From an uncultured Lactobacillus sp. (GTDB taxonomy: Bacteria > Bacillota > Bacilli > Lactobacillales > Lactobacillaceae): a stretch of DNA of 32,112 bases. Both the position numbers and the translations under genes were made by a program. This document shows positions 24,773 through 27,858 of the stretch, piece after piece. The stretch is taken from assembly GCA_945971245.1 (NCBI GenBank), contig CAMFOZ010000007.1:1-32112 (forward strand). The letters run 5' to 3'. How positions within the stretch are numbered: the stretch's first letter is position 1; the number at the start of each line of letters is the position of its first letter. Below the pieces are notes generated by a model. That model worked only from the letters and a program-made list of their open reading frames with translations, did no database searches and was not told where the DNA came from.

Positions 24773-24802
24773 TTGACAAATAATTCACCGTGAAGTTAAA
24801 CT
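24773..24802 (+). promoter_or_regulatory. Probable sigma-A promoter of the proBAC operon
   Basis: TTGACA (24773-24778), 18-nt spacer, TAAACT (24797-24802). Confidence 0.7.
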
Positions 24803-24808
24803 TAGAGT

Positions 24809-24985
24809 ATGGTCATAGTAGGTCAGTTCAGAGAGCGGAGTCACCGGCTGCAAGCCCCGTCGCAAGACCGAATCCAAGCCATCTTGATAACACATGAATA
24901 TAATTAATTAAAAAGAGTAAAGCACGTCTTTAAACGAGAATGGTAACGCCGTAACGGGTGTCTCGATTAAAGGCGTGCTTTTGTT
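24809..24985 (+). ncRNA. T-box riboswitch, predicted tRNA-Pro specific (specifier CCA)
   Basis: Stem I base ATGG/CCAT; loop-E AGTA (24817-24820) opposite GAA (24870-24872); helix GGTC/GACC; CAGAGAG and GGCTGCAAGCC distal elements; specifier CCA at 24874-24876 (GAA-N-NNN-A); TGGT (24941-24944) in T-box position; hairpin ending in TTTTGTTT. Confidence 0.88.
24921..24985 (+). terminator. Terminator-like hairpin of the T-box leader enclosing the TGGT motif
   Basis: AGCACGTCTTTAAACGAGA (24921-24939) pairs with TCTCGATTAAAGGCGTGCT (24961-24979): 17 Watson-Crick, 1 G-U, 1 A-A mismatch; followed by TTTTGTTT. Confidence 0.8.
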
Positions 24986-25003
24986 TAAGGAGGGATCTGC
25001 GTT

Positions 25004-25792
25004 ATGGCAGCAAAGAAACAGCGAATAGTCATTAAGGTCGGGACCAGTAGTCTGATCCTCCCCAACGGCCAAACTAATCTGCACGCAATTGATGGATTGG
25101 CATTTACCCTGGCGACCCTTAACCACCAGGGCTACGAGATGATTCTCGTCTCGTCTGGGGCGATGGGTGTCGGTCTGGCGAGTTTAGGGTTGAAAAAGCG
25201 CCCCAGTGAGATCGCCAAGCAGCAGGCCCTGGCCGCCATCGGGCAAACCGAACTGATGCGGATCTACTCGCAACGCTTCCTCGACTACCAGACCAAGGTC
25301 GGCCAACTGCTCCTGACCCGGGACGTCCTGCACTTCCCGGTCAGCCGCCAGCACGTCCTCAACACCATCACCACCCTGCTGGCCGATGGGGTCGTCCCGA
25401 TCATCAACGAAAACGATCCCGTTTCCGTCGACGAGTTGGACCACCACACCACCTTCAGTGACAACGACGAGCTGTCTGCCCTGGTAGCCACGCGGATCCA
25501 CGCTGACCTGCTCGTGGTCCTCTCCGATATCGATGCCTTCTACGACAAGGACCCCCACAAGTTCCCCGATGCCCAGCCGATTCGGCGGGTAACCGAAATG
25601 ACTCCGGAACTGGAAGAGGCCGCCAGCGGTTCCAGCACCCGCTTCGGTACCGGGGGAATGGTCACCAAGCTCCACGCCGCCACCACGGTCATGAAGGCTA
25701 ACCAGAAGATGATCCTCTGCAACGGTGCCGATCCCAAGATTATCTTCCGGATTGTCAACGGCGAAGAAGTCGGTACCCAGTTTGGTAAGTAA
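25004..25792 (+). CDS. proB: Glutamate 5-kinase (short form without PUA domain)
   Basis: 262 aa; IVIKVGTSSLI, SSGAMGVGL, INENDPVS, FGTGGMVTKLHAA; ends after the kinase domain. Confidence 0.96.
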   Translation: MAAKKQRIVIKVGTSSLILPNGQTNLHAIDGLAFTLATLNHQGYEMILVSSGAMGVGLASLGLKKRPSEIAKQQALAAIGQTELMRIYSQRFLDYQTKVGQLLLTRDVLHFPVSRQHVLNTITTLLADGVVPIINENDPVSVDELDHHTTFSDNDELSALVATRIHADLLVVLSDIDAFYDKDPHKFPDAQPIRRVTEMTPELEEAASGSSTRFGTGGMVTKLHAATTVMKANQKMILCNGADPKIIFRIVNGEEVGTQFGK

Positions 25793-25812
25793 CATATAAA
25801 GGAGGAAAAACT

Positions 25813-27057
25813 ATGAATGAAGCATTAATCAAAATCGGTCAACGGGCTCAGGCCGCTGCCGATCAAGTTGCCCTACTCGACACTGCCACTAAGAACCAGG
25901 CACTAGTCGCCATGGCAAACGCCCTAGAAGCCCACCAGCAAGAGGTCATCACCGCCAACAAGGAGGACCTCGCTAATGCGGTGAACATGCCTAAGAAGTT
26001 CACCGACCGCCTGATGGTTGACCAGCAACGCATTACCGATATGGCCAACGGGCTGCGGGCCATCGCTAATCTAGCCGATCCGACTGCCCGGATTGACCGG
26101 GGCTGGATCAACACCGACGGACTCCAGATTTTGCAGCGGCGGGTTCCACTGGGCGTCATCGGAATCATCTTCGAGGCGCGGCCAAACGTCACTGTTGACG
26201 CCACCGGTCTGACCTTCAAGAGCGGTAACGCGGTGATCCTCCGCGGGGGAAAGGAAGCTATCCGGACCAACACCACCCTCGCTAACGTTCTGCGGGCCGC
26301 ACTAGAAAAGCAGGGACTCCCGGCCGACGCTGTTCAATTAATCGAAGACACCAGTCATGAACTCGCCCAGGAGATGATGAACCTCACGGACTACATCGAT
26401 GTCCTCATTCCACGGGGTGGCCGGGGTCTCATCCAACGGGTTGTTAAGACGGCCACCGTACCGGTAATCGAAACCGGGGCCGGGAACTGTCACGTTTACA
26501 TCGACAAGGATGCCGACCTTCAAATGGCTACCGACATCACCGTCAATGCTAAGGTCCAGCGGCCATCTGTCTGCAACGCGGCCGAAAAGCTCCTGATTCA
26601 CCAAGACGTGGCGGACAAGTACCTGCCAGCCATCGCCCAGGCCCTGATTGACCACGGTGTTCAGCTGCGCGGTGATGCCCGGGCCCGGGCAATTGTTCCC
26701 CAGATGCAAGCTGCTTCAGACGAGGATTGGGACACCGAGTACAACGACCTAATCATGGCGGTCAAGGTGGTCGACTCCCTCGATGATGCCATCCACCACA
26801 TCAACCGCCATAGCACTCACCACTCCGAGGTCATCATCACCGATAATATCGAGCGTGGCCGGGCTTTCCAGCAGCGGATTAATTCCGCCTGTGTCTACGT
26901 CAACGCCTCAACCCGTTTTACCGATGGTGGAGTCTTTGGCTTCGGTGCCGAGATCGGAATCAGTACCCAGAAGTTGCACGCTCGCGGACCGATGGGGCTC
27001 GATCAGCTAACTACGATCAAGTACGAGATCACCGGTAATGGTCAGGTGCGCCACTAG
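25813..27057 (+). CDS. proA: Glutamate-5-semialdehyde dehydrogenase
   Basis: 414 aa; VPLGVIGIIFEARPNVTVDA, GNCHVYIDKDAD, ARGPMGLDQLTTIKYEI. Confidence 0.98.
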   Translation: MNEALIKIGQRAQAAADQVALLDTATKNQALVAMANALEAHQQEVITANKEDLANAVNMPKKFTDRLMVDQQRITDMANGLRAIANLADPTARIDRGWINTDGLQILQRRVPLGVIGIIFEARPNVTVDATGLTFKSGNAVILRGGKEAIRTNTTLANVLRAALEKQGLPADAVQLIEDTSHELAQEMMNLTDYIDVLIPRGGRGLIQRVVKTATVPVIETGAGNCHVYIDKDADLQMATDITVNAKVQRPSVCNAAEKLLIHQDVADKYLPAIAQALIDHGVQLRGDARARAIVPQMQAASDEDWDTEYNDLIMAVKVVDSLDDAIHHINRHSTHHSEVIITDNIERGRAFQQRINSACVYVNASTRFTDGGVFGFGAEIGISTQKLHARGPMGLDQLTTIKYEITGNGQVRH

Positions 27058-27084
27058 GATTTACCAATAAGGAGGAATTTAATT

Positions 27085-27858
27085 ATGAAGATTACAGTTG
27101 TAGGTGTCGGTAGTATGGGCGGCGCCATCATTAAAGGACTTGTGACCAGCAGCGCCGATGAGGTCAGCGGTCTGAACCCAACCAATCCCCGGGTTAGCAA
27201 TATGGCCGAACAGCTGCACTTCAAGCTATTCACTACGGCCAGTGAGGTCATCAAATATCAGCCTGATGTCGTGATCCTGACCACCCCAGCCAACATTACC
27301 GTGGCAGTCGCCAAGGAACTCGACGGGCTGAAGCCGAATACCGTCATCATCTCGGCCGCCGCTGGGGTTCGGCAGCATGAGCTCAAGGCTGTATTGCCGA
27401 ATAATCCGGTAGCGACAATGATTCCCAACACGCCAGTTGCTGTCAACGCTGGGACCATCGGCCTGGCTCTGCCAGCGGAGGATTCAACCAATACCCGAAA
27501 CATCATCGACAACGTCCTCAACCAGCTCGGTGATGTCATCATGGTCAGCGAAGACCAGCTTGACATCGTGGGTGTTGTCGGTGGCTGTGGTCCGGCATTC
27601 GTCGACGTCTTCATGGATGCTATGAGCGACGCCGCCGTCAAGCACGGTCTTGACCGTCAGACCGCTTACCAACTGATCGCCAGCATGGTCAAGGGAACTG
27701 GGACCCTAGCCTACGACACCGAGAAGAGCCCATCCGCCCTTCGTGACGAGGTAACCTCCCCGGCTGGCACGACGATCAAGGGGGTCGAAGCCCTGGAGAA
27801 GCACGGTTTCCGTTTTGGCGTAATCGATGCAGTCAACAAGGCCAACGGCGAAGACTAA
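27085..27858 (+). CDS. proC: Pyrroline-5-carboxylate reductase
   Basis: 257 aa; GVGSMGGAIIKGL, MIPNTPVAVNAG, VTSPAGTTIKGVEALEKHGFR. Confidence 0.97.
   Translation: MKITVVGVGSMGGAIIKGLVTSSADEVSGLNPTNPRVSNMAEQLHFKLFTTASEVIKYQPDVVILTTPANITVAVAKELDGLKPNTVIISAAAGVRQHELKAVLPNNPVATMIPNTPVAVNAGTIGLALPAEDSTNTRNIIDNVLNQLGDVIMVSEDQLDIVGVVGGCGPAFVDVFMDAMSDAAVKHGLDRQTAYQLIASMVKGTGTLAYDTEKSPSALRDEVTSPAGTTIKGVEALEKHGFRFGVIDAVNKANGED

Follow-up and report, generated by a model that had tools for sequence, protein, structure and literature searches.

A proline T-box leader of Limosilactobacillus with a variant expression platform, in which the predicted terminator closes round the antiterminator

Transcription of the proline biosynthesis operon proB-proA-proC appears to be controlled by an unusual T-box leader on contig CAMFOZ010000007.1, a stretch of 32,112 nucleotides from an uncultured lactobacillus that we refer to as a whole as the window. 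The genome belongs to Limosilactobacillus, and loci related to the window include L. frumenti. The operon (25004-27858) comprises proB (25004-25792), proA (25813-27057) and proC (27085-27858), all assigned above cut-off with NCBIfam equivalogs (the TIGR01027/NF001221/TIGR00112 set), and the proline T-box leader lies 5' of it; every feature of the window described below is on the forward strand. By its anatomy and its relatives this leader is a T-box, but its expression platform is not the canonical one.

Stem I (24809-24882), delineated from the sequence and from the Rfam T-box alignment, contains a lower helix (24809-24813/24878-24882), a loop E made of AGTA (24817-24820) and GAA (24870-24872), a helix at 24821-24824/24866-24869, the AG-bulge motif CAGAGAG (24829-24835) and the distal loop GGCTGCAAGCC (24846-24856). 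Inspection places GAA-T-CCA at 24870-24876, with the proline codon CCA (24874-24876) as specifier. Loop E, the specifier loop and the AG bulge/distal loop stand at their expected places and are kept in relatives; no recognisable Stem II or IIA/B is present in the window leader. A consensus scan alone yields a possible sigma-70 type promoter upstream (TTGACA-18-TAAACT, 24773-24802, 10/12). An earlier note on this DNA had proposed a T-box leader specific for proline, and each element that it named (AGTA, CAGAGAG, GGCTGCAAGCC, GAA-T-CCA and TGGT) was found in place.

The specificity proposed there is likewise borne out. Nearly all proB leaders of relatives read GAA-N-CC[A/C/G/T], the third base of the specifier taking all four letters, and the genome carries a tRNA-Pro(UGG) that matches the CCA codon and whose discriminator base, read from the tRNA gene with the usual acceptor-stem numbering, is A, as UGGU demands. 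A serine (TCC) register was considered and rejected because only the GAA-N-NNN register reads CCN consistently across relatives, whereas the alternative would give TCC, CCC, ACC and GCC. Five proB leaders (L138, L140, L142, L043 and L053) have specifier regions that deviate from GAA-N-CCN, with GAA-A-TCC, a lost GAA or GAAATTCCT; a register shift or decaying specificity is possible in these, and L138, L140 and L142 stay odd also when the serine register is weighed.

The 3' part of the leader opens with the purine string AAGAG (24913-24917), which fits the published RRRxG motif of the discriminator and whose GxG is invariant in 27 relatives. It is followed by Stem III (UAAAG-CACGU-CUUUA, 24918-24932), the putative ON-state helix; by the invariant AA (24933-24934) that completes the published motif; and by the antiterminator (24935-24965), built of helix A1 (24935-24939/24961-24965), a 7-nt bulge (24940-24946) holding UGGU (24941-24944), and helix A2 (24947-24950/24957-24960). 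In the known discriminator the RRRxG-Stem III-AA string wraps the bulge-bound tRNA end (PMC7583486), while the role of Stem III has been called unclear (PMC6197855).

What sets this leader apart is the terminator. A hairpin of 20 bp (arms 24919-24939/24961-24981) encloses the antiterminator: its outer stem pairs 24919-24933 with 24967-24981 and, after an A.A mismatch (24934 x 24966), continues into 24935-24939 x 24961-24965, so that helix A1 sits inside the terminator hairpin. The downstream arm runs into the U-tract TTTTGTTT (24979-24986), which is retained in relatives. The segment 24912-24987 folds with a minimum free energy of -32.2 kcal/mol (z = -5.8; 0/200 shuffles equally stable), and the start codon is preceded by no second terminator. 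This intrinsic terminator with its U-tract, which follows the T-box sequence and ends ahead of the start codon, argues for transcriptional rather than class II (translational) control; no pairing of the Shine-Dalgarno sequence (24988-24994) was seen in folds that span it only in part. The near-perfect hairpin of the earlier note is thus real, although slightly longer than the 24921-24939/24961-24979 given there, and its position of A1 inside the hairpin holds in 27/27 distinct leaders of the genus. We also observed that a covariance model of A1/A2 matches the opposite strand at one locus (G006:C4:122544-122628, E 0.0014), so symmetrical is the switch.

The strand of Stem III also supplies the inner portion of the terminator's 5' arm, and evolutionary evidence for both helices was sought in the genus. 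The proB gene is present in 41 of 54 Limosilactobacillus genomes and the switch region in 36 of those 41 leaders (27 distinct); folding recovers the wrapped hairpin in all 27, with the U-tract retained. Four rival pairings, all bearing on the downstream arm, were compared on the alignment of Limosilactobacillus leaders. The wrapped hairpin is paired in 96.9% of cells, has nine pairs with two-sided changes and reaches a covariation of 0.267 against 0.151 in shuffled alignments (0/500), a signal that collapses in slid controls. Stem III is paired in 100% of cells, with two two-sided pairs and covariation never matched by shuffling (0/500). A1 and A2 are also 100% paired in the 27 distinct relatives, and four A1 pairs show two-sided change.

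An alignment-free swap test, in which 62 distinct Lactobacillaceae proB switches exchanged partners in 10,000 permutations, points the same way. The Stem III segment pairs with its own downstream arm at -18.97 kcal/mol and with swapped arms at -11.91 kcal/mol (0/10,000), and the two arms of Stem III likewise recognise each other (0/10,000). The antiterminator 3' strand and the downstream arm, by contrast, pair no better in their own combination (-5.96 kcal/mol) than when swapped (-6.01 kcal/mol; 6679/10,000), which is chance. The outcome is the same in a set of proS leaders (12 sequences, the gene having been checked in all but L238) and in alaS leaders (23); no such recognition of the downstream arm by the Stem III region is seen in 102 canonical T-boxes. 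The terminator 3' arm is therefore specific for the Stem III segment and only at chance level for the antiterminator 3' strand, its textbook partner. Some positions covary three ways: one occurs as A-U-A (25) or G-C-G (16), with G-U-A (16) as wobble intermediate, another as U-A-U (23) or C-G-C (9) with U-G-C (24) between. Changes matched in Stem III and in the terminator alike are what would be expected of a strand with two alternative partners. On the covariation and partner-swap results, it is Stem III that excludes the terminator and is excluded by it, whereas A1/A2 fit both states. The earlier note was right that the layout departs from the textbook, but it overlooked what renders the two states exclusive, namely Stem III (24918-24932), whose strand the terminator consumes.

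We read the leader, from sequence analysis and with a probability of roughly 0.8, as a T-box riboswitch that responds to proline tRNA at the level of transcription but has a variant expression platform, a Stem III-switched terminator. Of this mechanism, the observed part comprises both alternative helices with their covariation and conservation; tRNA dependence, the direction of the switch, the path of strand displacement and the persistence of A1/A2 in the OFF state are proposed as follows. In the ON state, uncharged tRNA-Pro would pair with the CCA specifier and, via its ACCA end, with UGGU. As the window has AAGAG-Stem III-AA with invariant GxG and AA, this tRNA should lock Stem III together with A1/A2, its binding holding the discriminator (RRRxG, folded Stem III, AA and A1/A2) in place. 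Folded Stem III would keep its strand from the terminator and RNA polymerase would read into proBAC; since Stem III contains the terminator 5' strand, locking it would itself be the antitermination step. In the OFF state, with charged tRNA or none, the arm 24967-24981 would extend A1 outward into a 15-bp stem ending on the U-tract, pairing first with AA and the 3' strand of Stem III, next with the loop and last with the 5' strand. The terminator would thus wrap round A1/A2, which can persist in both states. In folds of the growing transcript, Stem III and the antiterminator are present when the RNA ends at 24966, and the wrapped hairpin appears from about 24974.

Several observations weigh against this interpretation. 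In the window the terminator state is far more stable than Stem III plus antiterminator (-31.3 vs -9.8 kcal/mol), and Stem III by itself is weak (-0.3 kcal/mol); tRNA would consequently have to act kinetically. The covariance search with RF00230 proposed in the earlier note did align the model end to end over 24799-24966 in a low-threshold scan (361 bases), but at 19.6 bits (E 0.021), far under the gathering score of 93 bits, which is a scoring convention rather than a biological feature; at that threshold the scan of the window returned no match. Neither the shuffle nor the swap controls correct for shared ancestry; the main safeguard is that the canonical pairing, taken from these very sequences, behaves differently. 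Finally, this canonical pairing, GUGUCU with AGGCGU, is itself compatible with 96.1% of cells in the genus.

Of the competing explanations, one inverts the logic of the switch: as A1/A2 are a subset of the terminator hairpin, tRNA bound at the bulge could stabilise them, nucleate the wrapped hairpin and so promote termination. We consider this improbable, since a discriminator motif round a folded, covarying Stem III is sensible only if tRNA binding accompanies Stem III, and Stem III precludes the terminator; induction of proBAC by charged or abundant tRNA would, moreover, be physiologically odd. A canonical switch, in which termination depends on GUGUCU (24958-24963) pairing with AGGCGU (24971-24976) and the long hairpin is a by-product, has on its side the general rule for T-boxes (PMC7583486, PMC10907184) and the compatibility just mentioned. 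This pairing shows 0 two-sided pairs, no covariation above the shuffled level and an energy of -0.7 kcal/mol, it is at chance in the swap tests of proB, proS and alaS leaders, and it is the outer stem that covaries instead. On covariation, energy and swap tests it was rejected as the main terminator, which makes a canonical switch very unlikely; alignment of proB leaders, the check suggested in the earlier note, thus supports the wrapped hairpin and Stem III and not the standard exclusive pair. That the leader is a decayed T-box, now a constitutive attenuator, could be argued from the low Rfam score and the missing Stem II or IIA/B, yet throughout the genus the specifier, UGGU, A1/A2, Stem III and the purine string are retained, with compensatory changes, and we give decay little credence. 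Least probable of all is the fallback of the earlier note, with ACGCC (24946-24950) and GGCGT (24972-24976) as terminator and the long hairpin as tRNA-stabilised antiterminator: perfect over 5 bp in the window (-6.9 kcal/mol), this pairing is formed in 81.5% of cells and is not enriched in two-sided changes, whereas the long hairpin directly and conservedly adjoins the U-tract in every relative.

The wrapped layout is not confined to the window. Relatives with the same platform score 38-87 bits against RF00230 (E down to 6e-18), and T-box membership rests on these relatives and on the anatomical elements because the window itself scores below the gathering score. To survey the layout, a covariance model was built from the A1/A2 pairs alone, so as to favour none of the competing pairings; it matched in 69 of 401 Lactobacillaceae genomes, in 8 of 40 genera. 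Beyond Limosilactobacillus, 44 loci (L194-L237) are wrapped, each with ProB encoded just 3'. In 298 genomes of the order, 11 loci (L346-L356), all wrapped, precede a prolyl-tRNA synthetase-like gene, and four further wrapped loci of this proS type (L360-L363) lie in other families of the class, which gives 15 putative proS leaders across Bacilli, the gene being identified from its translated start. That proS leaders share the layout suggests an origin older than the Lactobacillaceae proB leaders.

Among 122 T-boxes in five Lactobacillaceae genera, eight are wrapped: three of proB and five of alaS, one in each of the five genera. The others have their terminator downstream of the T-box sequence. 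An automatic classification had marked 16 of the 122 as wrapped, half of which were artefacts of an early TTTT and proved canonical when folded further. The wrapped alaS leaders (L020 in the window's own genome, L313, L323, L329 and L341, and the genus loci L146-L175) use the loop and the 3' side of Stem III for the terminator. Loss of Stem II was rejected as the cause of the wrapped layout because the proB leaders of genus g13 (L206, L209, L213-L215 and similar) retain a CACGGA...CCGTTA element, Stem IIA/B-like, between Stem I and Stem III, and are wrapped too; this element is missing from the window leader.

Individual loci show peculiarities of their own. L364, 5' of an acetyltransferase-like gene, has the core TGATACC instead of TGGTACC and is perhaps a decayed T-box. 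Unlike its close relatives, L051 (G037) has no T-box core in the 300 bases 5' of proB, to which a long coding stretch seems to adjoin. The proB gene of G039 (L052) has one internal TAA in its reading frame and an intact T-box leader, and a second, strong T-box (112 bits) lies near proB on the opposite strand at L201:2810-3033.

We would rather favour the view that, alongside the canonical design, T-boxes have another conserved expression platform, represented by proS leaders across Bacilli and by proB and alaS leaders of Lactobacillaceae: Stem III would be the switching strand, and A1/A2 with their bulge would persist in either state, leaving the tRNA acceptor end free to remain docked when transcription is terminated. 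The wrapped platform appears to be new relative to the reviews compared, which give the canonical rule; the passages found in TBDB and in the 2008 survey mention no other T-box layout, and an earlier description elsewhere is possible. The group lends itself to testing whether tRNA stabilises the discriminator with Stem III or A1/A2 alone, and to testing the part played by Stem III, a helix whose role has been called unclear. It also has consequences for annotation: a search based on RF00230 puts these leaders under threshold, and software that expects the terminator to follow the antiterminator would draw them wrongly.

The closest known systems are the class I T-boxes such as B. subtilis glyQS (RF00230), which share with the window a Stem I with specifier loop and AG bulge/distal loop, a Stem III framed by RRRxG...AA, an A1/A2 antiterminator with a 7-nt UGGN bulge, and an intrinsic terminator before the operon. 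The rule described for them is that the 3' strands of A1 and A2 turn into the terminator 5' strand (PMC7583486, PMC10907184); the present group breaks it, for the strand of Stem III is used instead and decides the outcome, while A1/A2 stay inside the terminator. Bacillus-type T-boxes of proB(A) precede the same gene, with RF00230 matches 5' of proB in L097, L098, L114, L116, L128 and L131, but folding and inspection place their downstream terminators in the usual position; a related-locus search based on ProB led mostly to such distant proB genes, which served only as controls of this type. The alaS T-boxes of Clostridium acetobutylicum and B. subtilis belong to the same RNA family but are canonical (PMC4695836), whereas the alaS leaders from five genera of Lactobacillaceae have the wrapped layout. 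Class II T-boxes, for instance that of M. tuberculosis ileS, are finally comparable in having a pre-formed element, an antisequestrator able to bind charged and uncharged tRNA (PMC10907184). Comparable binding of both is conceivable here because A1/A2 fit both states; class II T-boxes, however, hide the ribosome-binding site, whereas the U-tract terminator of the window ends before the Shine-Dalgarno sequence.
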